This document shows, one piece after another, positions 21,001 to 64,000 of a stretch of 64,000 nucleotides of DNA. The position numbers were made by a program, and so were the translations under genes. The notes beneath the pieces were generated by a model. That model saw only the letters and a program-made list of their open reading frames with translations, was not told the origin of the DNA and did no database searches. The stretch is from Branchiostoma floridae (Eukaryota; Chordata; Leptocardii; Amphioxiformes; Branchiostomatidae). The stretch spans positions 20,293,116-20,357,115 of the forward strand of contig NC_049991.1 in NCBI RefSeq assembly GCF_000003815.2. The letters run 5' to 3'. The stretch's first letter is position 1. Every line of letters starts with the position of its first letter.

Positions 21001-24000
21001 GGTAAAAGTGGTAAAAGGTACACAAGTTACCCACTGCCAGAAATAGGCCTTAACATTTGGAGTTCTTAAACTGTAACTGCATAGGTATGGCCAGCCCTAT
21101 GTTAGGTGTCTGTTGACTACCTGGTTAGGGAGGTAGCAAGAAGGATGGGGGAGAGTAAATGGGTTTATGTGAAAAACAAATGCACTTGAAGAATAGCAGA
21201 ATAATAAGCAAAAGTCTACGTTTGCAAACTTCTGTCAATTGAGACCAGAAAAAATTTTGCTATAAAAAAAACAAAATGCAGAAAGAGTTGATCTGGAATA
21301 AAATCTCCCCCTCCCAAATCCTTCTTGGTTAGTCCTACGGTAACAGTACTGTATGGAACAGTAAGTATGCCTTTACTTGTGTTTCTTTTGAGTTCTGTTT
21401 GAGTATTTCATGTTATGATCACTTTGATATGTTCATACTTTGTTCCTTTTGTACATTCAGTTTTTTATTATACATACCAGTTTCATTTAATGTCTTATTT
21501 GTATTGAATGTTAGCATGTCTTATACATATTATAGACTTAAATGTGATAGAAATTTCTTTCAATATTGAAAGACACTAGAGTACCACTGTATCCCATTGA
21601 AGTTCAAGTCTTGCAATGTTGGAATAGCAAAATATTCAGTATTGTGTTTTCTGAATTTAGATTTAGTTTTGAAACAGATAGATAGTTGTATTTGTATTAT
21701 ATTTTATATTGTGTGCATGTACATTTGTGCAGGCTACAGTATATATAGAATTATATATATATATATATATATATGAATTTAAAGATTTTCATTTTTTCAC
21801 ATTTAATAATTTTTTTAAGTTGCCTTCATAATCACATTGATTGTTCACAACTTTCTACAATGTCAACAGATTTCTTATCTTTTCCACTTTCTTTGAAAAC
21901 CACACAAAATCATTTCAACATAGATTTCCTAGGCACACAACCTTTATTCTTTTGTCCACTTCCAACAGTTTCTGCAGCCATCATTTAGACATGACGTGAC
22001 TTTGCCATTAGGCCATGTAAATTTGATTATGTGGATGATATCTTCTGGGAACCCCAAAACTGATGCGAGTGTGCAAAAAAATGTTTGGCAGAAAAAATAG
22101 CCTTCATCATAAAATCTGAGTGGTGAGGAACATTGAACAACCGACTTAACACTGAGTTTGATATACCGCATTGACTTTGGCATTCTACAACATTGTATCT
22201 GTTTTCTGATATATTTTTCCCAGTGTCCGTCAGATATTTGCTACTTTGTTTAACTTACAATATGATCAAAGATATTCATTCGGACGAAAATTGATGCGCA
22301 TGTGAATGTCATCCATACAATCAAACCAGCATAGCCTTAGTAAGAAAACAGTGTTGAACTGATTTACCTACCCAAACCATGTACAGACCTAAGATTTTGA
22401 AATTGTCTTGAATCAAAAACAAGGGAATGTACATGTCTTGAAGCTTGAGAAGTTGTATCTGACCCCTGGAATGTTTCCAGGAGGAATGGATGTCATCTGT
22501 ACGATCAAATCAGCACAGCCATATAGTAATAAAACAATGTTGAACTGATTTACCTTCCTGACGAAACTATTTACAGACATTTTGAAACTGTGTTGAGAAC
22601 TTGTATCTGACCCCTGGAACGTTTCCAGGAGGAATGGATGTCATCCATACAATCAAATCAGCACAGCCTTAGTAGGAAAACAATGTTGGACTGATTTACC
22701 TTCCTGACGAAACTATTTACAGACATTTTGAAACTGTGTTGAGACAAAGACAAAGAAATGTACATGTCTTGAAGCTTGAGAAGTTGTATCTGACCCCTGG
22801 AATGTTTCCAGGAGGAATGGATGTCATCCATACAATCAAATCAGCACAGCCATATAGTAATAAAACAATGTTGACCTGATTTACCTTCCTGGCGAAACTA
22901 TTTACAGACATTTTGAAACTGTCTTGAGACAAAGACTAAGAAATGTACATGTCTTGAAGCTTGAGAAGTTGTATCTGACCCCTGGAATGTTTCCCTGCTG
23001 TTCCCAGGAGGAGCGGATGAGGCGCGGAGATGACGTCAGGCTGCAGATGGCGCTGGAGGAGAGCCAGAAAGAAAACTCCAAGGAAGAGGTGAGAGTTTAG
23101 AGAGTTAAGTTTACACAGTCCCTGGGTCTGTATGAAGACCTCTGAACTACAGGATAGAAAACTGAAGTGGTACGACCAGGTATGGTGGTCATCTGAACTA
23201 GCCAAAACTATCATGCAGGGAATGGTCTGGGGAGGAAGAAAGAGAGATAGAAAATGGGAAAGATTTGAGGATGATGTCAGAATGACAGGCACTGAGAAGC
23301 ATTAAAAAAACAGAAAATCGAGAAGGGTGGAGAAAACTGTCAATTACCTGATACTATTGGATAAATGGGATGTTGAGTCGATGGCCATGAAACCTGAGCA
23401 CTATAGTCATCCCAATGTGATGATCTACCTCAGTACCTGCTACATTTATTCAGGGATTTAAACCCAGAAACTTCAGTATCCAGAACATTGTATTGAGTAC
23501 TGTTTGCCTGTCTCCCTTCAGTTGAACCAGTCTTCCCTGTTGGACCTTGCGGACACGACGCCACCCGGACACGCAGCCGACCCTTGGGGCGGCCCCGCCC
23601 CAGCCAACAACTCCGCCCCCCAGCCCATCCGACAAACCGACCCGTGGGGCGGCGGCGCCACCATTTCCGCTCCCGCCTCCGCTACCAACATGGCGGCCGT
23701 CGCGCAAGCCGATCCGTGGGGGTCAAGCTCACCCCCCGCCCAGCCGAAGTCAGCCCCACCCCCCATCCAACAGGCCGACCCCTGGGGTGGGGGTTCGACG
23801 AGCCAGCCGTCGTCGCAGTCCCAGTCCCCCTGGGGGTCCCCGGCCATCAGCAGCAGTGCTCCTGTGAGCAGCACCTCCTTCGACGCATTCGGAAACAGCA
23901 GTCAGACGGCGAGCAACGATCTAGACGGCTTCGATCTCCTCGGTTCACGGTCCACGGGAGGCAGTGGAGACCTACTCGGGGGCGGCGTTTCCTTGCAGAA

Positions 24001-24433
24001 CAACGTTGGCCCGTTTAACATGATGGGGCTCGACCAGGGTTTACCCATGCAGCCGGGCGGCAAGCAGAAGACGCCGGAGACCTTCCTTGGCGAGAACTCG
24101 TCCCTGGTGAACCTGGACAACCTGATCAGCCAGCCCGCCGCCCCGCCACCCGTGCTACCGCCGCCGGCGCAACCAGCCGTCACAAACCCCTTCCTCGGGA
24201 TCGCGCCGCCCTCACAACCGCTCTCGCAACCGCCCCCGGCAGCCAAGCCGGTCAGCAACCCATTCCAGGCTCAGATGGTCAGACCGCCCACTATAAACCA
24301 GATGCGCTCGCCGCCCGGACCGCCCGTGCAACCGGGACTGGTTGGACTGGGCGGCGCGGACGGCCTCCCACAACCGCTCCTCCCCATGGGAACCACAGCA
24401 CAACCGGCGCAGCCCACCAACCCCTTCTTATGA
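12035..24433 (+). CDS. EPN: Epsin, endocytic ENTH-domain clathrin adaptor (full length)
   Basis: Six coding exons: 12035-12578, 17292-17339, 19590-19705, 20652-20801, 23008-23088 and 23522-24433. All borders are GT-AG, phases agree, and they give 616 aa; vertebrate epsins are about 575-640. Residues 1-~145 are the ENTH domain (SLKNVVHNYTE, then REATSNDPWGPSSSLM), with the basic residues that bind PtdIns(4,5)P2 in rat epsin conserved (Arg5, Lys8, Arg22, Asn27 here). Three ubiquitin-interacting motifs follow, near 218-236 (EEELQLQLALAMS), 268-286 (DDDIQLRYVLAMS) and 293-311 (DDVRLQMALEES), roughly one per exon. The last exon has DPW motifs at 333, 353, 377 and 399 (AP-2 binding), a clathrin box LVNLD at 508, and NPF motifs at 535, 559 and 613 (EH-domain binding). 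The protein bends membrane and links ubiquitinated cargo to coated pits. Which vertebrate paralogue it matches is not decidable. Confidence 0.96.
12545..13080. repeat. Three 171-bp tandem copies starting inside epsin ENTH exon
   Basis: GAGGGGAAAGGGG starts copies at 12545, 12716 and 12887 (the third with one change). The first ~34 bp of copy 1 is the coding end of the exon plus its donor AGAG|GTAAGA. Copy 2 keeps a donor-like AGAGGTAATA; copy 3 reads AGAGGAAAGA and has lost the GT. All three share the GTGTTTGTTTGCTTGT...GGTATGTGACTATTG tail. Confidence 0.9.
13081..15794 (+). other. Epsin intron 1 (first part)
   Basis: Long AT-rich intron. Near 15495-15615 a short word, TGCTGTGATTTTG, with GGCCCCTA recurs three to four times as a decayed local repeat. 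No exon or RNA gene recognised. Confidence 0.6.
15795..16474. mobile_element. 680-bp inverted-repeat transposon, TAA target duplication
   Basis: Ends CACTCGCTTTACACTAGG and CCTAGTGTAAAGCGAGTG are perfect inverted repeats that continue for about 50 bp through GTTTTTCTGAGACGTCTTGG. TAA flanks both sides (15792-15794 and 16475-16477). A 3-bp TAA duplication is usual for PIF/Harbinger elements and 3 bp also for CACTA elements. The interior repeats GTCTCAAGACC/GTCTTGGC words and has no transposase, so it is non-autonomous. Confidence 0.85.
16475..17291 (+). other. Epsin intron 1 (last part)
   Basis: AT-rich. A run of 15 C at 17181-17195 lies about 100 bp before exon 2. Nothing else recognised. 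Confidence 0.6.
17340..18603 (+). other. Epsin intron 2 (first part)
   Basis: No exon recognised. Contains short CACT and AGTAGT repeats (17350-17370 and 17470-17500) and a pyrimidine run at 17555-17585. Confidence 0.6.
18604..18990. mobile_element. MITE, CAGGGTT family, copy 2
   Basis: Ends CAGGGTTAAACAAGT and ACTTGTTTATCCCTG are inverted repeats. CCTTGT occurs on both sides (18598-18603 and 18991-18996) as a perfect 6-bp target duplication. The first ~120 bp align with the element at 1008-1311; this copy is longer in the middle. Confidence 0.85.
19285..19452 (+). mobile_element. 3' end of a non-LTR retrotransposon (5'-truncated)
   Basis: The segment ending AAGGGACTACCCTAAAGATC then AATAAATAGATAAATAAATAAATG is the characteristic tail of CR1/L2-type LINEs: a last coding/3' UTR stretch and short AATA-type repeats. 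Its 5' boundary is not clear. It lies in epsin intron 2, about 140 bp before exon 3. Confidence 0.6.
19706..20651 (+). other. Epsin intron 3
   Basis: No further gene seen. A short TG run (20607-20619) lies just before the exon 4 acceptor. Sequence near 20455-20580 is GC-richer but carries no supported exon. Confidence 0.6.
20802..23007 (+). other. Epsin intron 4
   Basis: Contains a TA dinucleotide run (21752-21774), a diverged copy of the palindrome's inner-end sequence at 22019-22100 (ATTTGATTATGTGGATGATAT...), another similar word block at 22280-22360 and the tandem units described separately. Confidence 0.7.
22461..23007. repeat. ~184-bp tandem units abutting epsin exon 5
   Basis: GACCCCTGGAA starts units at 22461, 22609, 22792 and 22977 (spacings 148, 183, 185; the short one lacks ~36 bp, the last is cut by the exon). 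Each unit contains TTTCCAGGAGGAATGGATG then a TCATCCATACAATCAAATCAGC word shared with the palindrome's inner end. The last unit runs straight into the acceptor of exon 5. Confidence 0.8.
23089..23521 (+). other. Epsin intron 5
   Basis: 433-bp intron before the last exon. Purine-rich around 23220-23340. No element recognised. Confidence 0.7.
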
Positions 24434-25824
24434 AACTGTGACTACACTAGCGCTAGCTGTATAAGTGTGCATGGAAGAGGTACAAGGTGGTAATTCCGCT
24501 CAGCCAAAAACGCTCGCAGAAAAATGCGAGGGTGTTGAAACATTTTAAGAGGGGGGGAGGGGGATGCTAGCAAAATGTGACCGCAAAAAATACGTCCCTA
24601 TCATTTCACGTGATCAACTTTCAACTTGTAGGGTAAGACGTCGGCAATTGTACACTAAAGATTTGTAGAAGTGTGAATTGTAGAAAAAGTATGACATAGC
24701 CCAGCGTTTCTAGGGGAAAGGTCTGTCAGCTAGTAGAAGTGAATGAAGCATAAGATGTAGACAAGCCCTTGGTATTCTGTGCCCCCTGCACATGCGCTGT
24801 GTGTTTGTAAATATCTATCGTACAGTTTGGGTCTCGGATGCTGACATGAGAGCTATGGTTCTTGTACTGAGATAGTGTGCTTTGCTTTCGAGTCTCAAGC
24901 CACGATGTTACCGTACCAGTCGACTCCATTTTTGTAAGAAAAGGCGTGAGAAAATGCGACTACAAATGATATCGCAGTCAGTGTGTTTCAACTACAAAGT
25001 GTTTCAACAGTTTTGAATGACATACTTTTAGTCTGGACTTGGACAACTCGATTCCGAGACTTAGGGAAGATGAAGGGAAGTGAAACACACCATTATGCAG
25101 ATGGTAGGAATAAGGCTACTAAATTCACAGAGTCCGATGCTAACTGGATATTTTGAAATATGGTTTCGTAGTACATGTAAATTGACAATCAGGCTGTGCT
25201 AAGTTTGCACAATGCCAGGTGCTTTTAATTCTCATCTTCTCAGTCACTCCTTGCAGAAATGGACGCACTTTTCCAACTGATATGGGTTTTTTTTCAAAAT
25301 CTTGTGCAGCGATCATTTTCAATGATTTCTTCTTGCTTGATCTTTTCCATGTTGAGGATACCAACTTTCTGTGTCAATGAGAGGGGACAGAATATTTTTG
25401 ATCACAAGCAATGTTTTACAGGATAATACATAGTTGTAAACTTCTTTTCACAACACTGTTTTACAAACACTCAAAGTACAAAGCTTCAGCACTTGAATCA
25501 AGCAGTATGGAAAAACAATGTTTGTTCAACAGCATTTTTACTGGTTTTAACTGTCAGAACAGGCATCAGACAGACTGAATTATATGTTTTACCATGTATG
25601 ATGTAATATGAAAACTTAAATTTTTAACAAAATGTACAAGTCTGCTCATATGTCATAACACCCTCATGGCATACCATTTCTTCATAACCCGAATGGTGCT
25701 GGCTGAAGACTGCTGCAAAAACTGTTTGGACACATTCTAAAGTAGACCCACAAGAAAGTGTTGTAAGCTGACTTGTCTTACTGGAGACTCTGCTGTAACT
25801 TCCCAGCGAGGCTTGATCATCTGA

Positions 25825-26105
25825 CGTGTCTTCTTACCAGTTGTCTTTACTGAACTCGAGTCTTACACGAGACTTGTTTGACTCTGTCGTTTCTATCTTT
25901 ACATTTGTCTTAACTCAAGTCTGTCTCGTCCAACTGGAAACTTGGTAGACTTGTACATTTCTTCTTTCCAGTTGTTTTTACTGAACTCAAGTCTGAGTTG
26001 TCTGACTGGAGACTTTGTCAACTGTGACATTTCTTCTTAACAGTTGTCTCGACTGAACTCAAGTCCAACTTATCTGACTGGAAAATTTGGTCGAGTTTGC
26101 TTTAA
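25825..26105. repeat. Degenerate ~59-72-bp minisatellite in the epsin 3' UTR
   Basis: The word (T)CTTACCAGTTGTCTTTACTG, AACTCRAGTCT and a GACTTG/ACTTTG word recur with spacings 59, 72 and 72 (AACTC at 25853, 25912, 25984, 26056). It is pyrimidine-rich and present in all units that reach this point. Confidence 0.75.
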
Positions 26106-27358
26106 CGACTCGCAGTATTGTGCTGTCAGCTTGATGACTTCTGTTGTGTCTGACGTATTTGGGCGCAGTTAAACCAAATAATGTATAGTCAAAATTGCAC
26201 AGGAAGACCACTTTGGCGACCAATTAAGATAGTTGTGGCAAACGTTATCTAAGGGACTACCAAAACGTGGTCATATTGGGCAAGCCGTTCTTCTGCAGAG
26301 GTGGTCTCTTGTACAGATTTGACTATATGCAAAACAATAATTAGTACCCAGAAACTTTGCTCAACATTAAGTTTCAGACGAAATCCTAGACCATGTCAAA
26401 TTGCTACATCAGTCCATGTCAGGGAGTGACTTGGAAGTTCTTTTGCTATCCAAGACGATATTTTATTACCGGTACCAATACTTGCTACATTATGTCTTTC
26501 AGGAAGCTCAGAGAGTTTTACTTCAATTTACTCCACATTATTATTACTCTGTGGAAACTAATGTTGAGACTTGGTAGTTTTCGTTGTGGTTTTGTGAACA
26601 TGAAAATTCCAGTGTTTGCAAATTGTCACCTCTAACATATATTGATATTGGTTTGTACCATATGATGACTAGCTAATGTTGAATTTAACGTTATATCAAT
26701 TCTTCCTATAGTCTTAACGACTAAGATGCAGCTATGGGGTTTTTAAAGTCATATTTAAGATGGAAAGCTGAAATTGTATCTAAAGTAGCTCACTAGCATA
26801 TTGTATGATGATTTTCAAAACTACTATTTGACTTGTTTCATTTTCACTTTGTATGATTGAACAAGACTGACGATCTACTATTGTATATTATCATAATTAT
26901 TATCGTACTGAAAACTATATTTTGGTAGAAGTAAAAAGAATACTGCCTCCTTCACGCACTAAAATCTGATGTTGACTATGTCCAAAGTGTAAATGTAAAA
27001 TTTGTCGATTGTACATGGGAGCGTTAGACTTGCTGTGCTTTGGGCTCCTTTTTGTAACTACGGACTGAGGTTCGCTTAAAACCCACACAGATTTAATTTA
27101 TAATGATGACATCCTCTGATGCAAATAACTTGTTCTGCAATGATCAATGATCTGTTATTAGACAGCTCAGTTTTAAAATCCTGTGACATGTACATGGCCT
27201 GATATTATGACTTGTGTGGTAGCATTGGCAATGGGCTTTTCTATTTTGGTAGCCGAGTGCAAGCTTTGTTGTGTATTTTTACCCAGTTGTCAGGAGCAGC
27301 AAGATTTGTTGTTATAAAGGTCAAAATTAAAAAAAAAAATAAGCACCATGGTGTTATC

Positions 27359-27364
27359 AATAAA
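27359..27364 (+). terminator. Probable epsin polyadenylation signal
   Basis: AATAAA followed within 30-50 bases by a GT/T-rich element (ACTTGTGTTTTTTTTGTCC). The same arrangement is kept in the later tandem units. Confidence 0.65.
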
Positions 27365-27433
27365 CTAACTTTGTGTGGACTATCATTACAACTTGTGTTT
27401 TTTTTGTCCTCTAGCACTTCACAAAGGTTGATA

Positions 27434-27607
27434 CAGTAGAGGCCGCTTAATTGCACGGCCTATTTGCCAGTGAATTTCATGCAATTATCCGACTGGTGCA
27501 ATAATGCAAAGTTATCAAGCTGGACCACACCGGTTTGGGATTTTAGGATTCTGTGCAGTTAACAGAAGTTTGCGTTAATCCGTTGTGCAATTAAGTGGCT
27601 TCTACTG
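27434..27607. mobile_element. pogo/Tigger-like MITE, copy A (TA target)
   Basis: Ends CAGTAGAGGCCGCTTAATTG and CAATTAAGTGGCTTCTACTG are inverted repeats, with TA on both sides (27432-27433 and 27608-27609). Length 174 bp. End sequence and TA duplication fit the pogo branch of Tc1/mariner. No coding capacity. Repeated in later units; in unit 3 the left end is deleted (junction near 37396). Confidence 0.8.
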
Positions 27608-27729
27608 TACCTATGTTGAGTTCAGTTGTCACAGGTTGCAGCATCTGTTCTATATATTAAAGTGGTCACATTTAAATGGATTCATCTACGTATTTGGATA
27701 GGCGTTTGGTGGAATAGAAGAATTGCCTA

Positions 27730-27896
27730 CAGTAGATGCCAGTTAATTGCACAACAGATTAACACACACTTCTGTTAACTGCACGGAATCCCAAACCCGT
27801 GCGGTCCAGCTAGATAATTTCGCATTATTGCACGGGCCGGATAATTGCATGGAATTCGCTGGCAAATGGAAAGTGCAATTAGCGGCTCCTAGAGTA
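27730..27896. mobile_element. pogo/Tigger-like MITE, copy B, inverted relative to A
   Basis: Starts CAGTAGATGCCAGTTAATTG and reads as the reverse complement of copy A through GTTAACTGCACGGAATCCC to AGTGCAATTAGCGGCTCC. The right end is degraded (AGAGTAGTAC). A and B lie 122 bp apart and could fold into one large hairpin. The pair is carried in each unit. Confidence 0.75.
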
Positions 27897-28799
27897 GTAC
27901 TCTTTTTACATCATGCTTTTTGGAGACCTCAGGTGTTTTGCTTCCTTCTTCCTAGTCAGTCACCGTGTTGCTTGCGTGTGCGGCTAACACAAGTGTTGAT
28001 AGCACTACTTCTGGTGTCATTGATGTATTACTCCGCGAGTGGGCATCCTGAAATAGATCCGAGCGAAAAACTGAACGGCTGCATGGACGCATGTTTTTAG
28101 CGGTGAGAAATTCGGTTTTGGCCAGCCGAACTGATATCAAAAGTTCGATTGGTGAAAGCTTGCTTGTAACTGAAGAAATCAGCAGGTAAAGTTTGACAGC
28201 CGCGCGCTAGGTCGGAGGTACACAGCGCTGGGTTCTGAGTGGTGCGGTTGTACGCTAGCAAGGAAAAAGTGCCTTTTGCTGGGATTGACTAATTGTAGCT
28301 TGTAATTGCTATTAACAACAAACCTATGGATTCTAGTCATTGGCAATTTTTTTTCTATTATATAGAGTAAATCTGCTCAACAGAGAATGAAAAATCTGCT
28401 GACATTTCATGTAGCTTCATTATAAAGGCGACCATGTAAAACACGAATTATAACCTAGAAGTCTATGGGAAGAAGAAACTCATCAATGAGACCTGAAATG
28501 AATATGAAAAATATTCATAAAAAATCAACGATTTGCGCTGGAGCAAAAAATTGAAAAGGTTTTATAACCGGGCGCCAGCCCGCATTTTTTGGCTGCAGAT
28601 TACTCCGTCTACCTATTTCCGTTAACATGGTAACGGACGAGTCTACATTTCCAAGGGGCGTAATTATTGTTATTTTTGTTGTATCGTACTCTACTAGATA
28701 TATAAGCCATTTGAAAGAGGACTAAGGTTCTAAAGCTGTTTTTCTTGGTGTAAACTACTTCCAAGTTATTTTTTGCCTTCTCCGCATTGTCCCGAGCGC
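27897..28799. other. Distal part of the 5-kb unit, noncoding
   Basis: No gene recognised. Includes CGGGCGCCAGCCCG (short perfect hairpin near 28568-28581) and CCGTTAACATGGTAACGG (near 28619-28636), both kept in most units. The unit ends at the junction GCGCG|GTCCCC. Confidence 0.6.
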
Positions 28800-29397
28800 G
28801 GTCCCCGGCCATCAGCAGCAGTGCTCCTGTGAGCAGCACCTCCTTCGACGCATTCGGAAACAGCAGTCAGACGGCGAGCAACGACCTAGACGGCTTCGAT
28901 CTCCTGGGATCGCGGTCCACGGGTGGCAGCGGCGACCTACTCGGGGCGGCGTTTCCTCGCAGAACAACGTTGGCGCGTTTAACATGATGGGGCTGGACCA
29001 GGGTTTACCCATGCAGCCGGGCGGCAAGCAGAAGACGCCGGAGACCTTCCTTGGCGAGAACTCGTCCCTGGTGAACCTGGACAACCTGATCAGCCAGCCC
29101 GCCGCCCCGCCACCCGTGCTACCGCCGCCGGCGCAACCAGCCGTCACGAACCCCTTCCTTGGGATCGTGCCACCCTCTCAACCGCTCTCGCAACCGCCTC
29201 CGGCAGCCAAGCCGGTCAGCAACCCATTCCAGGCTCAGATGGTCAGACCGCCCACTATAAACCAGATGCGCTCGCCGCCCGGACCGCCCGTGCAGCCGGG
29301 ACTGGTAGGACTGGGCGGTGCGGACGGCCTCCCACAACCGCTCCTCCCCATGGGAACCACAGCACAGCCGGCGCAGCCAACCAACCCCTTCTTATGA
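28800..29397 (+). pseudogene. Epsin C-terminal tail copy in unit 2 (frameshifted)
   Basis: Copy of codons ~418 to stop. Where the founder has CTCGGGGGCGGCG this copy has CTCGGGGCGGCG, a one-base loss that shifts the frame near 28945 and leads to an early stop just before 28990. The downstream part (ATGATGGGGCTGG to TGA at 29397) is open and keeps LVNLD and three NPF. No ENTH, UIM or DPW. There is no ATG at the copy's start. Confidence 0.85.
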
Positions 29398-32300
29398 AAC
29401 TGTGACGACACTAGCGCTAGCTGTATAAGTGTGCATGGAAGAGGTACAAGGTGGTAATTCCGCTCAGCCAAAAACGCTCGCAGAAAAATGCGAGGGTGTT
29501 GAAACATTTTAAGGGGGGGAGGGGGGATGCTAGCAAAATGTGACCCCAAAAAAAATCGTCCCCATCATTTCACGTGATCAACTTTCAACTTGTAGGGTAA
29601 GACGTCGGCAATTGTACACTAAAGATTTGTAGAAGTGTGAATTGTAGAAAAAGTATGACATAGCCCAGCGTTTCTAGGAGAAAGGTCTGTCAGCTAGTAG
29701 AAGTGAATGAAGCATAAGATGTAGACAAGCCCTTGGTATTCTGTGCCCCCTGCACATGCGCTGTGTGTTTGTAAATATCTATCGTACAGTTTGGGTCTCG
29801 GATGCTGACACGAGAGCTATGGTTCTTGTACTAGTGTGCTTTGCTTTCGAGTCTCAAGCCACGATGTTACCGTACCAGTCGACTCCATTTTTGTAAGAAA
29901 AGGCGTGAGAAAATGCGACTACAAATGATATCACAGTCAGTGTGTTTCAACTACAAAGTGTGTTTCAACAGTTTTGGATGACATACTTTTAGTCTGGACT
30001 TGGACAACTCGATTCCGAGACTTAGGGAAGATGAAGGGAAGTGAAACACACCATTATGCAGATGGTAGGAATAATGCTTCTAAATTCAAAGATTCTGATG
30101 CTAACTGGATATTTTGAAATATGGTTTTGTAGTACATGTAAATTGACAATCAGGCTGTGCTAAGTTTGCACGATGCCAGGTGCTTTTAATTCTCATCTTC
30201 TCAGTCACTCCTTGCAGAAATGGACGCACTTTTCCAGCTGATATGTTTTTTCCCCAAATCTTGTGCAGCGAACATGTTTCAATGGTTTCTTCTTGCTTGA
30301 TCTTTTCCATGTTGAGGATACCAACTTTCTGTGTCAATGAGAGGGGACAGAATATTTTTGATCACAAGCAATGTTTTACAGGATAACACATAGTTGTAAA
30401 CTTCTTTTCACAACACTGTTTTACAAACACTCAAAGTACAAAGCTTCATCAATTGAATCAAGCAGTATGGAAAAACAATGTTTGTTCAACAGCATTTTTA
30501 CTTGTTTCAACTGTCAATACAGGCATCAGACAGACTGAATTACATGTTTTAGCATGTAAGATGTAATATGAAAACTTAAATATTTAACAAAATGTACCAG
30601 TCTGCTCATATATCACAACACCCTCATGGCATACATACCATTTCTTCATAACTTAAATGGTGCAAGCTGAAGACTGCTGCAAAAACTGTTTGGACACATT
30701 CTAAAGTAGACCCACAAGAAAGTGTTGTAAGCTGACTTGTCTTACTGGAGACTCTGCTGTAACTTCCCAACGAGACTTGATCATCTGACGTGTCTTCTTA
30801 CCAGTTGTCTTTACTGAACTCGAGTCTGACAGGAGACTTGTTTGACTCTGTCGTTTCTATCTTTACATTTGTCTTAACTCAAGTCTGTCTCGTCCAACTG
30901 GAAACTTGGTAGACTTGTACATTTCTTCTTTCCAGTTGTTTTTACTGAACTCACGTCTGGGTCGTCTGACTGGACACTTTGTCAACTGTGACATTTCTTC
31001 TTTACAGTTGTCTCGACTGAATTCGAGTCCAACTCTGACTGAAAAATTTGGTTGACTTTGCTGTAACGACTCGCAGTATTCTGCTGTCAGCTTGATGTCT
31101 TCTGTTGTGTCTGACATATTTTTGCGCAGTTAAACCAAGTAATGTATAGTCAAAATTGCACAAGAAGACCACTTTGGCGACCAATTAAGATAGTTGGTCA
31201 CCATAGACAGGTTTCTTGATGCTTGTGGCAAACGTTATCTAAGGGACTACCAAAACGTGGTCATATTGGGCAAGCCATTCTTATGCAGAGGTGGTCTCTT
31301 GTACAGGTTTGACTATACGCAAAACAATAATTAGTACCCAGAAACTTTGCTCAACGTTAAGTTTCAGACGAAATCCTGGTCCAAGTTAAATCGCTACATC
31401 AGTCCCTGTCAGGGAGTGACTAGGAAGTTTGTTTGCTATCCAAGACGATATTTTATTACCGGTACCAATACTTGCTACATTATGTCTTTCAGGAAGCTCA
31501 GAGAGTTTTACTTCAATTTACTCCACATTATTATTACCCTGTGGAAACTAATGTTGAGACTTGGTAGTTCTCGTTGTGGTTTTGTGAACATGAAAATTCC
31601 AGTGTTTACAAATTGTCATCTCTAACATATATTGATATTGGTTTGTACCATATGATGACTAGCTAATGTTGAATTTAACGTTATATCAATTCTTCCTATA
31701 GTCTTAACGACTAAGATGCAGCTATGGGGTTTTTAAAGTCATATTTAAGATGGAAAGCTGAAATTGTATCTAAAGTAGCTCACTAGCATATTGTATGATG
31801 ATTTTCAAAACTACTTTTTGACTTGTTTCATTTTCGCTTTGTATGATTGAACAAGACTGACGATCTACTATTGTATATTATTATAATTATTATCGTACTG
31901 AAAACTATATTTTGGTAGAAGTGAAAAGAATACTGCCTCCTTCACGCACTAAAATCTGATGTTGACTATGTCCAAAGTGTAAATGTAAAATTTGTCGATT
32001 GTACATGGGAGCGTTAGACTTGCTGTGCTTTGGGCTCCTTTTTGTAACTACGGACTGAGGTTCGCTTAAAACCCACACAGATTTAATTTATAATGATGAC
32101 ATCCTCTGATGCAGCGAATTTAGCTTACTCTGCAACGATCTGTTATTAGACAGCTCAGTTTTAAAATCCTGTGACATGTACATGGCCTGATATTATGACT
32201 TGTGTGGTAGTTTTGGCGAGGTGCTTTTCTATTTTGGTAGCCGAGTGCAAGCTTTGTTGTGTATTTTTACCCAGTTGTCAGGAGCAGCAAGATTTGTTGT

Positions 32301-33797
32301 TATAAAGGTCGAAATTAAAAAAAAAAGCACCATGATGTTATCAATAAACTAACTTTGTGTGGACTATCATTACAACTTGTGTTTTTTTTTTGTCCTCTAG
32401 CACTTCACAAAGGTTGATACAGTAGAGGCCGCTTAATTGCACGGCCTATTTGCCAGTGAATTTCATGCAATTATCCGACTGGTGCAATAATGCAAAGTTA
32501 TCCAGCTTGGACCACACCGGTTTGGGATTTTAGGATTCCGTGCAGTTAACAGAATTGTGCGTTAATCCGTTGTGCAATTAAGTGACTTCTACTGTACCTA
32601 TGTTGAGTTCAGTTGTCACAGGTTGCAGCATCTGTTCTATATATTAAAGTGGTCACATTTAAATGGATCCATCTACGTATTTGTATAGGCGTTTGGTGGA
32701 ATAGAAGAATTGACTACAGTAGAAGCCGGTTAATTGCACAACGGATTAACACACACTTCTGTTAACAGCAAGGAATCCCAAACCGGTGCGGTCCAGCTAG
32801 ATAATTTCGCATTATTGCACGAGCCGGATTATTGCATTGAATTTGCTGGCAAATAGGAAGTGCAATTAAGCGGCTCCTAGAGTAGTACTCTTTTTACATC
32901 ATGCTTTTTGGAGACCTCGGGTGTTTTGCTTCCTTCTTCCTAGTCAGTCACCGTGTTGCTTGCGTGTGCGGCTAACACAAGTGTTGATATCACTACTGTG
33001 TAACCTTCTTGTCTGATTGATGTATTACTCCGCGAGTGGGCATCCTCAAATAGATCCGAGCCCAAAACTGAACGGCTGCATGGACGCATGTTTTTAGCGG
33101 TGAGAAATTCGGTTTTGGCCAGCCGAACTGATATCAAAAGTTCGATTGGTGAAAGCTTGCTTGTAACTGAAGAAATCAGCAGGTACAGTTTGACAGCCGC
33201 GCGCTAGGTCGGAGGTACACAGTCCTGGGTTCTGAGTGGTGCGGTTGTACGCTAGCAAGGAAAAAGTGCCTTTTGCTGGGATTGACTAATTGTAGCTTGT
33301 AATTGCTATGAACAACAAACCTTTGGATTCTAGTCATTGGCAATTTTTTTTCTATTATATAGAGTAAATCTGCTCAACAGAGAATGAAAAATCTGCTGAC
33401 ATTTCATGTAGCTTCATTATAAAGGCGACCATGTAAAACAAGAATTATAACCTAGAAGTCTATGGGAAGAAGAAACTCATCAATGAGACCTGAAATGAAT
33501 ATGAAAAATATTCATAAAAAAATCAACGATTTGCGCTGGAGCAAAAAATTGAAAAGGTTTTATAACCGGGCGCCAGCCCGCATTTTTTGGCTGCAGATTA
33601 CTCCGTCTACCTATTTCCGTTAACATGGTAACGGACGAGTCTACATTTCCAAGGGGCGTTATTATTGTTCTTTTTGTTGTATCGTACTCTACTAGATATA
33701 TAAGCCATTTGAAAGAGGACTAAGGTTCTATAGCTGTTTTTCTTGGTGTAAACTACTTCCAAGTTATTTTTTTGCTTCTCCGCCTTGTCCCGAACGC
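28800..33797 (+). repeat. Tandem unit 2 (4998 bp)
   Basis: Head-to-tail copy of unit 1, with a few percent differences and small indels throughout. Keeps the AATAAA (near 32342) and both MITEs. Its coding tail carries a frameshift (see the pseudogene entry). Confidence 0.95.
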
Positions 33798-34396
33798 GGT
33801 CCCCGGCCATCAGCTGCAGTGCTCCTGTTAGCAGCACCTCCTTCGACGCATTCGGAAACAGCAGCCAGACAGCGAGCAATGACCTAGACGGCTTCGATCT
33901 CCTGGGTTCCCGGTCAACGGGTGGCAGTGGCGACCTACTCGGGGGCGGCGTTTCCTCGCAGAACAACGTTGACGCGTTTAACATGATGGGGCTCGACCAG
34001 GGTTTACCCATGCAGCCGGGCGGCAAGCAGAAGACTCCGGAGACGTTCCTTGGCGAGAACTCGTCCCTGGTGAACCTGGATAACCTGATCAGCCAGCCCG
34101 CCGCCCCGCCACCCGTGCTACCGCCGCCGGCGCAACCGGCCGTGACAAACCCCTTCCTCGGGATCGCGCCGCCCTCACAACCGCTCTCGCAACCGCCCCC
34201 GGCATCCAAGCCGGTCAGCAACCCATTCCAGGCTCAGATGGTCAGACCGCCCACTATAAACCAGATGCGCTCGCCGCCCGGACCGCCCGTGCAACCGGGA
34301 CTGGTAGGACTGGGCGGTGCGGACGGCCTCCCACAACCGCTCCTCCCCATGGGAACCACAGCACAACCGGCGCAGCCCACCAACCCCTTCTTATGA
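33798..34396 (+). pseudogene. Epsin C-terminal tail copy in unit 3 (open frame)
   Basis: Open from the junction to TGA at 34394-34396, with the clathrin box LVNLD and all three NPF motifs. Compared with the founder it has VSSQNNVDAFN in place of VSLQNNVGPFN and SK for AK before the second NPF. The frame is also open upstream to 33752, but no ATG precedes the epsin part. Called a pseudogene because no start or proven splice acceptor is present; it could be a noncanonical terminal exon. Confidence 0.7.
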
Positions 34397-37300
34397 AACT
34401 GTGACTACACTAGCGCTAGCTGTATAAGTGTGCATGGAAGAGGTACAAGGTGGTAATTCCGCTCAGCCAAAAAAGGCTCGCAGAAAAATGCGAGGGTGTC
34501 GAAACATTTTAAGAGGGGGGGATGCTAGCAAAATGTGACCGCAAAAAAAACGTCCCTATCATTTCACGTGATCAACTTTCAACTTGTAGGGTCAGACGTT
34601 GGCAATTGTACACTAAAGATTTGTAGAAGTGTGAATTGTAGAAAAGTATGACATAGCCCAGCGTTTCTAGGGGAAAGGTCTGTCAGCTAGTAGAAGTGAA
34701 TGAAGCATAAGATGTAGACAAGCCCTTGGTATTCTGTGCCCCCTGCACATGCGCTGTGTGTTTGTAAATATCTATCGTACAGTTTGGGTCTCGGATGCCG
34801 ACACGAGAGCTATGGTTCTTGTACTGAGATAGTGTGCTTTGCTTTCGAGTCTCAAGCCACGATGTTACCGTACCAGTCGACTCCATTTTTGTAAGAAAAG
34901 GCGTGAGAAAATGCGACTACAAATGATATCGCAGTCAGTGTGTTTCAACTACAAAGTGTGTTTCAACAGTTTTGGATGACATACTTTTAGTCTGGACTCG
35001 GACAACTCGATTCCGAGACTTAGGGAAGATGAAGGGAAGTGAAACACACCATTATGCAGATGGTAGGAATAATGCTTCTAAATTCACAGAGTCTGATGCT
35101 ATCTGGATATTTTGAAATATGGTTTCGTAGTACATGTAAATTGACAATCAGGCTGTGCTAAGTTTGCACAATGCCAGGTGCTTTTAATTCTCATCTTCTC
35201 AGTCGCTCCTTGCAGAAATGGACGCACTTTTCCAGCTGATATGTTTTTTCCAAAATCTTATGCAGCAAACATGTTTCGATGGTTTCTTCTTGCTTGATCT
35301 TTTCCATGTTGAGGATACCAACTTTCTGTGTCAATGAGAGGGGGCAGAATATTTTTGATCACAAGCAATGTTTTACAGGATAATACATAGTTGTAAACTT
35401 CTTTTCACAACACTGTTTTACAAACACTCAAAGTACAAATCTTCAGCAATTGAATCAAGCAGTATGGAAAAACAATGTTTTTTCAATAGCATTTTTACTT
35501 GTTTTAACTGTTTTCAGAACAGGCATCAGACAGACTGAATTATATGTTTTAGCATGTAAGATGTAATATGAAAACTTAAATATTTAACAAAATGTACAAG
35601 TCTGCTCATATATCATAACACCCTCACGGCATACCATTTCTTCATAACTTGAATGGTGCAAGCTGAAGACTGCTGCAAAAACTGTTTGGACACATTCTAA
35701 AGTAGACCCACAAGAAAGGGTGGTAAGCTGACTTGTCTTACTGGAGACTCTGCTGTAACTTCCCAGCGAGACTTGATCATCTGACGTGTCTTCTTACCAG
35801 TTGTCTTTACTGAACTCGAGTCTGACAGGAGACTTGTTTGACTCTGTCGTCTCTATCTTTACATTTGTCTTAACTCAAGTCTGTCTCGTCCAACTGGAAA
35901 CTTGGTAGACTTGTACATTTCATCTTTCCAGTTGTTTTTACTGAACTCAAGTCTGAGTCGTCTGACTGGAGACTTTGTCAACTGTGACATTTCTTCTTTA
36001 CAGTTGTCTCGACTGAATTCGAGTCCAACTCTGACTGAAAAATTTGGTTGACTCTGCTGTAACGACTAGCAGTATTCTGCTGTCAGCTTGATGTCTTCTG
36101 TTGTGTCTGACGTATTTTTGCGCAGTTAAACCAAATAATGCAGAGTCAAAATTGCACAAGAAGACCACTTTGGCGACCAATTAAGATAGTTGGTCACCAT
36201 AGACAGGTTTCTTAATGCTTGTGGCAAACGTTATCTAAGGGACTACCAAAACGTGTTCATATTGGGCAAGCCGTTCTTATGCAGAGGTGGTCTCTTGTAC
36301 AGGTTTGACTATACGCAAAACAATAGTTGCCCAGAAACTTTGCTCAACGTTACGTTTCAGACGAAATCCTGGTCCATGTCAAATTGCTACATAAGTCCAT
36401 GTTAGGGAGTGACTCGGAAGTTCTTTTGCTATCCAAGACGATATTTTATTACCGGTACCAATACTTGCTACATTATGTCTTTCAGGAAGCTCAGAGAGTT
36501 TTACTTCAATTTAATCCACATTATTATTACCCTGCGGAAACTAATGTTGAGACTTGGTAGTTTTCGTTGTGGTTTTGTGAACATGAAAATTCCAGTGTTT
36601 GCAAATTGTCATCTCTAACATATATTGATATTGGTTTGTACCATATGATGACTAGCTAATGTTGAATTTAACGTTATATCAATTCTTCCTATAGTCTTAG
36701 CGACTAAGATGCAGCTATGGGGTTTTTAAAGTCATATTTAAGATGGAAAGCTGAAATTGTATCTAAAGTAGCTCACTAGCATATTGTATGATGATTTTCA
36801 AAACTACTTTTTGACTTGTTTCATTTTCACTTTGTATGATTGAACAAGACTGACGATCTACTATTGTATATTATTATAATTATTATCGTACTGAAAACTA
36901 TATTTTGGTAGAAGTAAAAAGAATACTGCCTCCTTCACGCACTAAAATCTGATGTTGACTATCTCAAAAGTGTAAATGTAAAATTTGTCGATTGTACATG
37001 GGAGCGTTAGACTTGCTGTGCTTTGGGCTCCTTTTTGTAACTACGGACTGAGGTTCACTTAAAACCCACACAGATTTAATTTATAATGATGACATCCTCT
37101 GATGCAAATAACTTGTTCTGCAATGATCAATGATCTGTTGTTAGACAGGTCAGTTTTAAAATCCCGTGACATGTACATGGCCTGATATTATGACTTGTGT
37201 GGTAGTTTTGGCAATGGGCTTTTCTATTTTGGTAGCCGAGTGCAAGCTTTGTTGTGTATTTTTACCCAGTTGTCAGGAGCAGCAAGATTTGTTGTTATAA

Positions 37301-47700: not shown

Positions 47701-49121
47701 TGTGTTTTTTTTTTTGTCCGCTACCACTTCACAAAGGTTGATACAGTAGAGGTCGCTTTATTGCACAGCCTATTTGCCAGTGAATTTCATGCAATTATCC
47801 GACTGGTGCAATAATGCAAAGTTATCAAGCTGGACCGCATCGGTTTGGGATTTTAGGATTCTGTGCAGTTAACAGAAGTGTGCGTTAATCCGTTGTGCAA
47901 TTAAGTGACTTCTACTGTACCTATGTTGAGTTGTCGTCACAGGTTGCAGCATCTGTTCTATATATTAAAGTGGTCACATTTCAATGGACCCTTAAAGGTA
48001 TTTGGATTGGCGTTTGGTGGAATAGAAGAATTGACTACAGTAGAAGCCGGTTAATTGCACAACGGATTAACACACACTTCTGTTAACTGCACGGAATCCC
48101 AAACCCGTGCGGTCCAGCTAGATAATTTCGCATAATTGCACGAGCCGGATAATTGCATGGAATTTGCTGGCAAATAGGAAGTGCAATTAAGCGGCTCCTA
48201 GAGTAGTACTCTTTTTACATCATGCTTTTTGGAGACCTCAGGTGTTTTGCTTCCTTCTTCCTAGTCAGTCACCGTGTTGCTTGCGTGTGCGGCTAACACA
48301 AGTGTTGATGGCACTACTGTGTAACCTTCTTGTCTCATTGATGTATTACTCCGCGAGTGGGCACCCTGAAGTAGATCCGAGCCAAAAACTGAACGGCTGC
48401 ATGGACGCATGTTTTTAGCGGTGAGAAATTCGCTTTTGGCCAGCCGAACTGATATCAAAAAGTTCGATTGGTGAAAGCTTGCTTGTAACTGAAGAAATCA
48501 GCAGGTAAAGTTTGACAGCCGCGCGCTAGGGCGGAGGTACACAGTCCTGGGTTCTGAGTGGTGCGGCTGTACGCTAGCAAGCAATGAAAAGGTGCCTTTT
48601 GCTGGGATTGACTAATTGTAGCTTGTAATTGCTATTAACAACAAACCTATGGATTCTAGTCATTGGCAATTTTTTTCTATTATATAGAGTAAATCTGCTC
48701 AACAGAGAATGAAAAATCTGCTGACATTTCATGTAGCTTCATTATAAAGGCGACCATGTAAAACACGAATTATAACCTAGAAGTCTATAGGAAGAAGAAA
48801 CTCATCAATGAGACCTTAAATGAATATGAAAAATATTCATAAAAAATCAACGATTTGCGCTGGAGCAAATAATTGAAAAGGTTTTATAACCGGGCGCCAG
48901 CCCGCATATTTTGGCTGCAGATTACTCCGTCTACCTATTTCCGTTAACATGGTAACGGACGAGTCTACATTTCCAAGGGGCGTTATTATTGTTATTTTTG
49001 TTGTATCGTACTCTACTAGATATATAAGCCATTTGAAAGAGGACTAAGGTTCTATAGCTGTTTTTCTTGGTGTAAACTACTTCCAAGTTATTTTTTGCCT
49101 TCTCCGCCTTGTCCCGAACGC

Positions 49122-49723
49122 GGTCCCCGGCCATCAGCAGCAGTGCTCCTGTGAGCAGCACCTCCTTCGACGCATTCGGAAACAGCAGCCAGACAGCGAG
49201 CAACGACCTAGACGGCTTCGATCTCCTGGGATCGCGGTCCACGGGTGGCAGTGGCGACCTACTCGGGGGCGGCGTTTCCTCGCAGAACAACGTTGGCGCG
49301 TTTAACATGATGGGGCTCGACCAGGGTTTACCCATGCAGCCGGGCGGCAAGCAGAAGACGCCGGAGACCTTCCTTGGCGAGAATTCGTCCCTGGTGAACC
49401 TGGACAACCTGATCAGCCAGCCCGCCGCCCCGCCGCCCGTGCTACCGCCGCCGGCGCAACCAGCTGTGACAAACCCCTTCCTCGGGATCGCGCCGCCCTC
49501 ACAACCGCTCTCGCAACCGCCCCCGGCGGCATCCAAGCCGGTCAGCAACCCATTCCAGGCCCAGATGGTCAGACCGCCCACTATAAACCAGATGCGCTCG
49601 CCGCCCGGACCGCCCTTGCAACCGGGACTGGTAGGACTGGGCGGTGCGGACGGCCTCCCACAACCGCTCCTCCCCATGGGAACCACAGCACAGCCGGCGC
49701 AACCAACCAACCCCTTCTTATGA
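49122..49723 (+). pseudogene. Epsin tail copy in unit 6 (open frame)
   Basis: Open to TGA at 49721-49723. It contains a 3-bp insertion (PPAASK for PPAAK/PPASK), so the frame is kept. LVNLD and three NPF present; no start codon at the epsin part. Confidence 0.7.
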
Positions 49724-52700
49724 AACTGTGACTGCACTAGCGCTAGCTGTATAAGTGTGCATGGAAGAGGTACAAGGTGGTAATTCCGCTCAGCCAAAAA
49801 CACTCGCAGAAAAATGCGAGGATGTTGAAACATTTTAATAGGGTGGGAGGGGGGATGCTAGCAAAATGTGACCGCAAAAAAAAAAAAAAAAACGTCCCAA
49901 TCATTTCACGTGATCAACTTTCAACTTGTAGGGTCAGACGTCGGCAATTGTACACTAAAGATTTGTAGAAGTGTGAATTGTAGAAAAAGTATGACATAGC
50001 CCAGCGTTTCTAGGGGAAAGGTCTGTCAGCTAGTAGAAGTGAATGAAGCATAAGATGTAGACAAGCCCTTGGTATTCTGTGCCCCCTGCACATGCGCTGT
50101 GTGTTTGTAAATATCTATCGTACAGTTTGGGTCTCGGATGCTGACACGAGAGCTATGGTTCTTGTACTGAGATAGTGTGCTTTGCTTTCGAGTCTCAACC
50201 CACGATGTTACCGTACCAGTCGACTCCATTTTTGTAAGAAAAGGCGTGAGAAAATGCGACTACAAATGATATCACAGTCAGTGTGTTTCAACTACAAAGT
50301 GTGTTTCAACAGTTTTGGATGACATACTTTTAGTATGGACTTGGATAACTCAATTCCAAGACTTAGGGGAGTTGTATGGAAGAGAAACACACCATTATGC
50401 AGATGGTAGGAATAATGCCTCTAAATTCACAGAGTCTGATGCTAACTGGATATTTTGAAATATGGTTTCGTAGTACATGTAAATTGACAATCAGGCTGTG
50501 CTAAGTTTGCACAATGCCAGGTGCTTTTAATTCTCATCTTCTCAGTCACTCCTTGCAGAAATGGACACACTATTCTAACTGATATATTTTTTTCCAAAAT
50601 CTTGTGCAGCGAACATGTTTCAATGGTTTCTTCTTGCTTGATCTTTTCCATGTTGAGGATACCAACTTTCTGTGTCAATGAGAGGGGACAGAATATTTTT
50701 CATCACAAGCAATGTTTTACAGGATAATACATAGTTGTAAACTTCTTTTCACAACACTGTTTTACAAAAACTCAAAGTACAAAGCTTCAGCACTTGAATC
50801 AAGCAGTATGGAAAAACAATGTTTGTTCAACAGCATTTTTACTTGTTTTAACTGTCAGAACAGGCATCAGACGGACTGAATTATATGTTTTACCATGTAT
50901 GATGTAATATAAAAACTTAGATATTTAACAAAATGTACAAGTCTGCTCATATATCATAACACCCTCACGGCATACCATTTCTTCATAACTTGAATGGTGC
51001 AAGCTGAAGACTGCTGCAAAAACTGTTTGGACACATTCTAAAGTAGACCCACAAGAAAGGGTGGTAAGCTGACTTGTCTTACTGGAGACTCTGCTGTAAC
51101 TTCCCAGCGAGACTTGATCATCTGACGTGTCTTCTTACCAGTTGTCTTTACTGAACTCGAGTCTGACAGGAGACTTGTTTGACTCTGTCGTCTCTATCTT
51201 TACATTTGTCTTAACTCAAGTCTGTCTCGTCCAACTGGAAACTTGGTAGACTTGTACATTTCATCTTTCCAGTTGTTTTTACTGAACTCAAGTCTGAGTC
51301 GTCTGACTGGAGACTTTGTCAACTGTGACATTTCTTCTTTACAGTTGTCTCGACTGAATTCGAGTCCAACTCTGACTGAAAAATTTGGTTGACTCTGCTG
51401 TAACGACTAGCAGTATTCTGCTGTCAGCTTGATGTCTTCTGTTGTGTCTGACGTATTTTTGCGCAGTTAAACCAAATAATGCAGAGTCAAAATTGCACAA
51501 GAAGACCACTTTGGCGACCAATTAAGATAGTTGGTCACCATAGACAGGTTTCTTAATGCTTGTGGCAAACGTTATCTAAGGGACTACCAAAACGTGTTCA
51601 TATTGGGCAAGCCGTTCTTATGCAGAGGTGGTCTCTTGTACAGGTTTGACTATACGCAAAACAATAGTTGCCCAGAAACTTTGCTCAACGTTACGTTTCA
51701 GACGAAATCCTGGTCCATGTCAAATTGCTACATAAGTCCATGTTAGGGAGTGACTCGGAAGTTCTTTTGCTATCCAAGACGATATTTTATTACCGGTACC
51801 AATACTTGCTACATTATGTCTTTCAGGAAGCTCAGAGAGTTTTACTTCAATTTAATCCACATTATTATTACCCTGCGGAAACTAATGTTGAGACTTGGTA
51901 GTTTTCGTTGTGGTTTTGTGAACATGAAAATTCCAGTGTTTGCAAATTGTCATCTCTAACATATATTGATATTGGTTTGTACCATATGATGACTAGCTAA
52001 TGTTGAATTTAACGTTATATCAATTCTTCCTATAGTCTTAGCGACTAAGATGCAGCTATGGGGTTTTTAAAGTCATATTTAAGATGGAAAGCTGAAATTG
52101 TATCTAAAGTAGCTCACTAGCATATTGTATGATGATTTTCAAAACTACTTTTTGACTTGTTTCATTTTCACTTTGTATGATTGAACAAGACTGACGATCT
52201 ACTATTGTATATTATTATAATTATTATCGTACTGAAAACTATATTTTGGTAGAAGTAAAAAAGAATACTGCCTCCTTCACGCACTAAAATCTGATGTTGA
52301 CTATGTCAACAGTGTAAATGTAAAATTTGTCGATTGTACATGGGAGCGTTAGACTTGCTGTGCTTTGGGCTCCTTTTTGTAACTACGGACTGAGGTTCGC
52401 TTCAAACCCACACAGATTTATTTTATAATGATGACATCCTCTGATGCAAATAACTTGTTCTGCAATGATCAATGATCTGTTATTAGACAGCTCAGTTTTA
52501 AAATCCCGTGACATGTACATGGCCTGATATTATGACTTGTGTGGTAGTTTTGGCAAGGGGCTTTTCTATTTTGGTAGCCGAGTGCAAGCTTTGTTGTGTA
52601 TTTTTACCCAGTTGTCAGGAGCAGCAAGATTTGTTGTTATAAAGGTCGAAATTAAAAAAAATAAGCACCATGATGTTATCAATAAACTAACTTTGTGTGG

Positions 52701-54134
52701 ACTATCATTATAAGTTGTGTTTTTTTTTGTCTGCTAGCACTTCACAAAGGTTGATACAGTAGAGGCCGCTTAATTGCACGGCCTATTTGCCAGTAAATTT
52801 CGTGCAATTATCCGAATGGTGCAATAATGCAAAGTTATCTAGCTTGACCACACCGGTTTGGGATTTTAGGATTCTGTGCAGTTAACAGAAGTGTGCGTTA
52901 ATCCGTTGTGCAATTAAGTGACTTCTACTGTACCTATGTTGAGTTAAGTTGTCACAGGTTGCAGAATCTGTTCTATATATTAAAGTGGTCACATTTAAAT
53001 GGATCCATCTACGTATTTGTATAGGCGTTTGGTGGAATAGAAGAATTGACTACAGTAGAAGCCAGTTAATTGCACAACGGATTAACACGCTTCTGTTAAC
53101 TGCACGGAATCCCGAACCCGTGCGGTCCAGCTAGATAATTTCGCATTATTGCACGAGCCGGATAATTGCATGGAATTTGCATGCAAATAGGAAGTGCAAT
53201 TAAGCGGCTCCTAGAGTAGTACTCTTTTTACATCATGCTTTTTGGAGACCTCAGGTAATTTGCTTCCTTCTTCCTAGTCAGTCACCGTGTTGCTTGCGTG
53301 TGCGGCTAACACAAGTGTTGATGGCACTACTGTGTAACCTTCTTGTCTCATTGATGTATTACTCCGCGAGTGGGCACCCTAAGATAGATCCAAGCCAAAT
53401 ACTGAACGGCTGCATGGACGCATGTTTTTAGCGGTGAGAAATTCGGTTTTGGCCAGCCGAACTGATATCAAAAGTTCGATTGGTGAAAGCTTGCTTGTAC
53501 CTGAAGAAATCAGCAGGTAAAGTTTGACAGCCGCGCGCTAGGTCGGAGGTACACAGCGCTGGGTTCTGAGTGGTGCGGTTGTACGCTAGCAAGGAAAAAG
53601 TGCCTTTTGCTGGGATTGACTAATTGTAGTTGTAATTGCTATTAACAACAAACCTATAGATTCTAGTCATTGGCAATTTTTTTCTATTATATAGAGTAAA
53701 TCTGCTCAACAGAGAATGAAAAATCTGCTGACATTTCATGTAGCTTCATTATAAAGGCGACCATGTAAAACACGAATTATAACCTAGAAGTCTATGGGAA
53801 GAAGAAACTCATCAATGAGACCTTAAATGAATATGAAAAATATTCATAAAAAAATCAACGATTTGCGCTGGAGCAAAAAATTGAAAAGGTTTTATAACCG
53901 GGAGCCAGCCCGCATTTTTTGGCTGCAGATTACTCCGTCTACCTATTTCCGTTAACATGGTAACGGACGAGTCTACATTTCCAAGGGGCGTAATTATTGT
54001 TATTTTTCTTGTATCGTACTCTACTAGATATATAAGCCATTTGAAAGAGGACTAAGGTTCTAAAGCTGTTTTTCTTGGTGTAAAGTACTTCCAAGTTATT
54101 TTTTTCCTTCTCCGCCTTGTCCCGAACGCGGCGC
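49122..54134 (+). repeat. Tandem unit 6 (5013 bp)
   Basis: Head-to-tail copy. It is a mosaic: unit-3-like near 50960-52250, unit-5-like near 52260-52460 and 53320-53640, and unit-3/4-like towards its end. Confidence 0.93.
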
Positions 54135-58100: not shown

Positions 58101-58116
58101 CACAAAACGCTATATC

Positions 58117-58240: not shown

Positions 58241-58419
58241 CGCTATTACTACCACATCCTTATCCTTCAAGCAGAAGTTGAGTCGCTGAGAATTTAATAG
58301 TAGAAATCGGGATTTCTACCGGCTCTTAGCTCAAGGGTCAACTTGCCGCCTGAGTTAGACCCTGGAAATTTAGAACATATATGCGGTATATTAGAAGGAA
58401 AGGGTCTCCTCCTGTTTGC

Positions 58420-63731: not shown

Positions 63732-64000
63732 GGTCCCCGGCCATCAGCAGCAGTGCCCCTGTAAAGCCCCCTTTATAAATCAAGAATTTAGCTCGGCCGA
63801 GATGTCAGCGAGCTTTAAATTACGAGGAGGCATGACCCTGATGCCTACGAACAAATGGCAGAGTTTCTTCGTCGGCATCAGGGTCATACCTCCTTGTAAT
63901 TTAGAGCTCGCTGACAACTCGGCCGAGCTAAACTCTTGATTTGTAAAAGGGGCTTTAGCAGCACCTCCTTCGATGCATTCGGAAACAGCAGCCAGACGGC
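63732..64000 (+). repeat. Tandem unit 8 (cut by window end)
   Basis: Starts at the same GGTCCCCGG junction and is interrupted after 30 bp by a palindromic MITE, then resumes the epsin exon sequence to the window end. Confidence 0.93.
63732..64000 (+). pseudogene. Epsin tail copy in unit 8, broken by MITE, incomplete
   Basis: Epsin parts 63732-63761 and 63958-64000 with a palindromic MITE between. The rest lies beyond the window. Confidence 0.85.
63762..63957. mobile_element. 196-bp palindromic MITE in the unit-8 epsin tail
   Basis: TAAAGCCCCCTTTATAAATC...GAGGCATGACCCTGATGCC is matched in inverted form by GGCATCAGGGTCATACC...AAAAGGGGCTTTA. Arms are about 80 bp with a short loop containing AACAAATGGCAGAG. 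TA at each outer end may be the target (Tc1/mariner type), but the founder sequence there is GTGAGC, so the target is not certain. Confidence 0.85.

Follow-up and report, generated by a model that had tools for sequence, protein, structure and literature searches.

A 64,000-nucleotide stretch of the Branchiostoma floridae genome (contig NC_049991.1, our C13:20293116-20357115; the whole stretch analysed is called the window here) holds an epsin gene followed by a tandem array of ~5-kb units, which repeat the 3' half of the last epsin exon with its 3' untranslated region (3'UTR). This partial-gene tandem array, bounded by a transposable element (TE), is real and of a known kind; it consists of a parental copy, U1 (from 23835), and seven extra copies, U2-U8, arranged head-to-tail. 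Its notable feature is the gene-like constraint seen in the half-exon copies. We propose, at slightly better than even confidence, that the extra copies are passengers of a TE-bounded tandem duplication, and that their exon has been refreshed by exchange with functional epsin alleles.

The junction word GGTCCCCGGCC occurs exactly eight times on the + strand, at 23835, 28800, 33798, 38767, 44125, 49122, 54135 and 63732, against a mean of 0.01 expected by chance, and none of 100 shuffles reached eight. BLAST, alignment and self-comparison all place the start of a ~5-kb direct repeat unit at each of these positions, so that the direct repeats have a single common junction, as expected of a tandem segmental duplication. 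A longer word, GAACGCGGTCCCCGGCC, is present at four of the seven array junctions (U3, U5, U6 and U8). Any two of U1-U7 are 95.9-97.7% identical; U8, which lacks its tail, is 92.9-94.5% identical to the others. A sequence-only reading of this DNA had described a tandem amplification of the 3' end of epsin, with a breakpoint word at the same eight positions, units that start in the middle of the last exon and end ~1.4 kb past the poly(A) signal, and an array running on beyond the window. All of this holds: the first unit begins inside 23522-24433, the AATAAA at ~27359 is followed by ~1.4 kb up to the end of the unit, and in the downstream DNA that we examined the array ends at 68072, ~4 kb beyond the window, where the last unit abuts sequence that looks zinc-finger-like by eye. 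The whole array thus spans C13:20316950-20361187. The earlier count of at least eight units stands for the junction words but has to be lowered for the amplified copies, since one of the eight is the parent. The units and the elements within U1 are as follows.

23835..28799, + strand: U1, parental unit, with the 3' half of the last exon, the 3'UTR, a miniature inverted-repeat transposable element (MITE) and a truncated TE
27359..27364, + strand: AATAAA poly(A) signal of U1, read from the sequence
27434..27899, + strand: inverted-repeat MITE-like element within the unit, limits approximate, arms pairing at 82-85%
28013..28799, + strand: unit tail, a truncated copy of a dispersed TE that breaks off at the array junction (from the genome search and its relatives)
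28800..33797, + strand: U2, extra copy, exon with one nucleotide of the frame deleted
33798..38766, + strand: U3, extra copy, open exon frame
38767..44124, + strand: U4, extra copy, 436-bp TE in the exon (38953-39388) and 5-nt insert at the junction
44125..49121, + strand: U5, extra copy, frame open on either side of a 100-N gap (44436-44535)
49122..54134, + strand: U6, extra copy, open exon frame with one additional codon
54135..63731, + strand: U7, extra copy, with the 436-bp TE of U4 and a further insertion of 4.25 kb (56295-60542) that holds two minisatellites
63732..64000 in the window, + strand: U8, last copy, exon with a 194-bp palindromic MITE (63763-63956), extending to 68072

The gene upstream is modelled with five exons that form an uninterrupted reading frame of 599 residues, and all four introns are GT-AG. 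As in the epsin family, an ENTH domain stands at the N-terminus (exon 1; Pfam, E=2.6e-54) and DPW and NPF motifs lie in the C-terminal part, at residues 316, 336, 360 and 382 (with another DPW at 28) and at residues 518, 542 and 596, respectively. The repeated part covers residues 402-599, with all three NPF motifs of the C-terminal part and none of the DPW motifs; since it starts at residue 402, the NPF tail alone was amplified. The extra units encode these residues only, and the ENTH domain is not found in them. We searched the genome (513.4 Mb, 431 contigs) with the last-exon protein and obtained 12 matches, all at the epsin locus and only one of them full length, which supports a single complete copy of the last exon. 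With the 3'UTR as query, the best 40 of 88 candidates comprised nine in the array and 31 elsewhere, the latter ~60-110 bp each. The gene model is listed below, with UIM-like motifs in exons 2, 3 and 4.

12035..12578, + strand: epsin exon 1, ENTH domain and ATG start (Pfam; GT-AG model)
19593..19705, + strand: epsin exon 2, UIM-like EEELQLQLALAMS (gene model)
20652..20801, + strand: epsin exon 3, UIM-like (gene model)
23008..23088, + strand: epsin exon 4, UIM-like, phase 0 at its end (gene model)
23522..24433, + strand: epsin last exon, four DPW and three NPF motifs (gene model)

The right edge of the unit lies in a dispersed TE, which starts ~3.6 kb 3' of the epsin stop codon. From 746 first-look candidates for a 900-bp tail query, the best 40 were scored; seven were the array itself and 33 lay elsewhere, and we fetched 20 of these 33 non-array loci. 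The element starts with GGTCT in all 20 and with GGTCTCATTGATG in 18, and directly before it stands TTAA in 11 loci, TTAT in five and another NTAA in the remaining four; in the array copies it is TTCT. Seven of the 20 are short relatives (~480 bp, 94-96% identical, with an inverted motif at the end), and 13 are long relatives (84-88% identical), 12 of which cover the array junction point and then run into CCCTCC and a poly-C tract. Because the long relatives continue past this point, the junction is a break inside a longer element, and the possibility that a TE terminus lies exactly at the junction is ruled out. The junction thus links the interior of the TE, just before the poly-C, with a palindromic, GC-rich site halfway along the last epsin exon, the TE break being fused to CCCCCTGGG/GGTCCCCGG (slash, break point); by eye there is no obvious microhomology. 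To judge from the sequence, such a fusion is the product expected when one breakpoint of a tandem duplication falls within a repeat. The last unit stops 28 bp short of the expected element start, and therefore the original right flank has been lost.

A retrocopy or processed pseudogene is ruled out as the origin of the units, which hold 1.4 kb of flank past the poly(A) signal. As a separate observation on the element, a second GGTCTCATTGATG-like start lies ~1.35 kb downstream in direct orientation in seven of seven long relatives (L014, L015, L016, L017, L018, L031 and L033; at most two errors allowed), so that the unit-tail element, too, may be arranged in direct tandem.

The sequence-only reading had called the amplification of a terminal half-exon unusual. 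In itself this is not strange, as tandem duplication breakpoints are not bound to gene borders. Tandem segmental duplications of parts of genes, evolving in concert through unequal crossover and gene conversion, share the features found here, namely head-to-tail units with one junction, arbitrary breakpoints and mosaic identity tracts. Unlike them, the coding part of this array keeps a gene-like ratio of nonsynonymous to synonymous divergence (dN/dS) without the rest of the gene. The TE at the right edge, the exchange between units and the synonymous bias are absent from the earlier account.

Exchange between units is seen in their shared tracts. We compared the U1-U7 set at ungapped polymorphic sites, excluding unit positions 185-270, with 500 site permutations. 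Against a mean divergence of ~3%, five pairs are identical over 0.6-1.3 kb: U3-U6 over 1341 bp (98 polymorphic sites), U5-U7 over 1018 bp, U4-U5 over 959 bp, U4-U7 over 755 bp and U5-U6 over 599 bp. Together with a U1-U7 tract of 283 bp, these are six of 21 pairs whose tracts no permutation matched. The 62-bp tract of U1-U6 exceeds all 500 permutations in the U1-U6 set only and is reached by 11 of 500 in the larger set; in the remaining pairs at least two permutations reach the tract length. At a larger scale, U2, U3 and U4 correspond in order to U5, U6 and U7 (11.8 kb, 96.9% identity); either a higher-order repeat or two haplotypes in succession may account for this.

The coding part is broken in U2, U4, U7 and U8, four of the seven extra copies, and the exon frame is open in U3, U6 and, the 100 Ns aside, U5. 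U2 has lost one nucleotide of the reading frame. The 436-bp TE is identical between U4 and U7, and its insertion is recent, because copies elsewhere are up to 99% identical to it (best 40 of 577 candidates). The U8 exon has, in addition to its MITE (best 40 of 1309 candidates scored), a 4-nt insertion. The minisatellites of the U7 insertion have a 141-bp unit repeated 4.4 times and a 115-bp unit repeated 12 times.

The coding differences between the copies are nevertheless mostly synonymous, as if the protein were still under selection. Over 597 nt, 27 of the 28 unit pairs differ (U4 and U7 are identical), with pairwise dS of 0.06-0.16 (mostly ~0.12), dN of 0.003-0.011 and dN/dS of 0.03-0.11, and each nonsynonymous departure from the consensus is private to one unit. 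These ratios resemble the allelic dN/dS of 0.067-0.089 that PMC4284660 gives for a lancelet. The seven extra copies together carry eight nonsynonymous and 42 synonymous variants, on totals of ~442 nonsynonymous and ~152 synonymous sites taken from the U1-U3 pair. For comparison, the TE tail has 54 variable sites of 785; counts for exon and TE were made after masking, as U4's insertion and the lack of a tail in U8 misalign the unmasked table. At the TE-tail rate ~30 nonsynonymous variants are expected, so that these are fourfold too few (Fisher p=6e-5), while synonymous variants are fourfold too many (Fisher p=8e-12), both tests assuming independent sites, which exchange between units violates, and counting a U7 that repeats U4 in the exon. 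That synonymous sites vary more than the tail suggests that the exon variation predates the junction and was drawn from a pool of alleles.

Selection on each unit accounts for the missing amino-acid changes and not for the synonymous surplus; exchange with a deep functional allele pool accounts for both. A single tandem duplication would have created the junction, and homologous exchange would afterwards have multiplied and mixed the units. The extra copies, with the rest of the gene absent and four of seven broken, would have no job of their own, and their exon would have exchanged repeatedly, by crossover or conversion, with the functional last exons of other epsin alleles. Since such alleles purge amino-acid changes before the sequence enters the array, mostly synonymous differences would be left among the units.

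Several observations speak against this proposal. The tracts that U1 has in common with extra copies are short, and none lies in the exon. Import from full-length alleles might leave variation reduced close to the junction, and such a cline was sought in 99-nt bins of six extra units (without U7) and not seen: counting from the junction, the bins hold 7, 10, 7, 9, 4 and 5 synonymous and 1, 3, 0, 1, 3 and 0 nonsynonymous variants. The synonymous divergence of ~0.12 between pairs, and of 0.10 on average at fourfold sites (seven units, U7 excluded), is well above the synonymous diversity of 0.0397 given for B. floridae in PMC12862219; if the exchange model holds, the allele pool must therefore be unusually deep here. 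A locally high mutation rate combined with selection on the units is also possible. Because of the diversity mismatch, the lack of a fall in synonymous variants towards the junction and this mutation-rate alternative, we hold the passenger interpretation at about half. If it is right, a tandem array without function can appear to be under purifying selection just by trading sequence with a functional exon in a very diverse population, and dN/dS tests on duplicates would have to be read with caution.

One alternative concerns the length of the array rather than its existence, with U2-U4 and U5-U7 as the two haplotypes of one individual placed in series. We regard this as unlikely, though to be taken seriously. 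The collinearity of 29210-40929 with 44536-56292, at the 96.9% identity over 11.8 kb given above, comes close to the heterozygosity of ~3% reported for the species in PMC12862219, the 436-bp TE and the 5-nt insert are common to U4 and U7, and the 100-N gap falls in U5. The presumed source assembly, as described in PMC7269912, was made from Sanger reads of one diploid whose haplotypes were assembled apart and merged (HaploMerger2, HiRise). Against stacking, the parent, U2-U4 in full and the start of U5 all fall within the gap-free stretch 8611-44435; with four junctions in it, the array exists whatever its total. The 100 Ns stand, in phase, for exactly 100 bp of the unit within a GC-rich portion of the exon, which is what a local gap would look like; the 959-bp identity of U4 and U5 is not predicted by simple haplotype pairing; and the genome search with the last-exon protein found no second exon copy elsewhere in the assembly. 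Given the U5 gap and the merged haplotypes of the presumed assembly, the copy number is uncertain and there may be fewer copies per haplotype.

Slightly less likely still is that the units serve as alternative last exons, with exon 4 (phase 0) spliced to an acceptor in the TE-derived tail. Judged from sequence features, the products would be epsins with ENTH, UIM-like and NPF parts and without the DPW-rich stretch, which binds AP2, and purifying selection would keep the frame. As in known sets of alternative terminal exons, several near-identical last exons would lie 3' of shared exons. The candidate acceptor, TTCCAAG/TTA (slash, splice point), stands in the TE tail 34-39 nt ahead of every junction. 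Splicing there would keep the frame in U2, U3, U5 and U6, for which the sites are at 28766, 33764, 44091 and 49088; these four of the seven extra units include every one whose exon is open. The frame would be lost in U4, U7 and U8, the units with TEs in the exon. The low dN/dS among copies, the privacy of their amino-acid changes and the shortage of nonsynonymous variants speak for this explanation as well. Yet this AAG, with a pyrimidine tract that looks weak by eye, appears a poor acceptor beside the CAG of the gene's own four introns, and the ATCAG sites, which look better, have phase 2 and do not fit the frame of exon 4. Unlike known terminal exons, the array seems to offer no good in-frame acceptor and has more than half of its extra copies broken, and synonymous variants at four times the tail rate are not accounted for by constraint alone. 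Splicing into ATCAG/CAGCAG at the head of the exon is ruled out, as it is out of phase with exon 4. The more specific proposal of a TE-assisted bank of alternative last exons, in which the TE gave the acceptor, epsin could end in any one of several near-identical NPF tails and codons were selected in at least U3, U5 and U6, we consider improbable. Were the copies used, they would form a TE-built set of interchangeable protein tails.

That each unit is a small independent gene, with a TATA-like site ~100 bp before the junction driving a transcript whose first in-frame ATG, at FNMMG, would start a free NPF tail competing for EH-domain partners, is very improbable on sequence grounds: TATATAAG does stand near 28700, no ATG is seen by eye in U2 between it and the FNMMG codon, and the 1-nt deletion of U2 lies upstream of that ATG, but the codons before it look constrained like the later ones (4 nonsynonymous and 16 synonymous variants against 4 and 26 in the extra copies), and the ATG is lost in U4 and U7.

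A comparable known system is Drosophila Sdic, a tandem multicopy family that is likewise built from gene parts. Its units are chimeric genes expressed from a promoter of their own, whereas any expression of the epsin units is hypothetical. A literature search on amphioxus epsin tandem duplication returned no matching paper.

A scan of the window for structured RNAs and tRNAs gave none at the Rfam gathering score and none by ARAGORN. Tandem repeats of 146-331 bp occupy 22306-22994, in the epsin intron directly before exon 4. Upstream of the gene, 6282-7731 and 9011-10466 form an inverted repeat (6282-10466 overall) with an 858-N gap between its arms; the arms, ~1.45 kb each, are 98.9% identical, and each contains ~184-bp tandem repeats.

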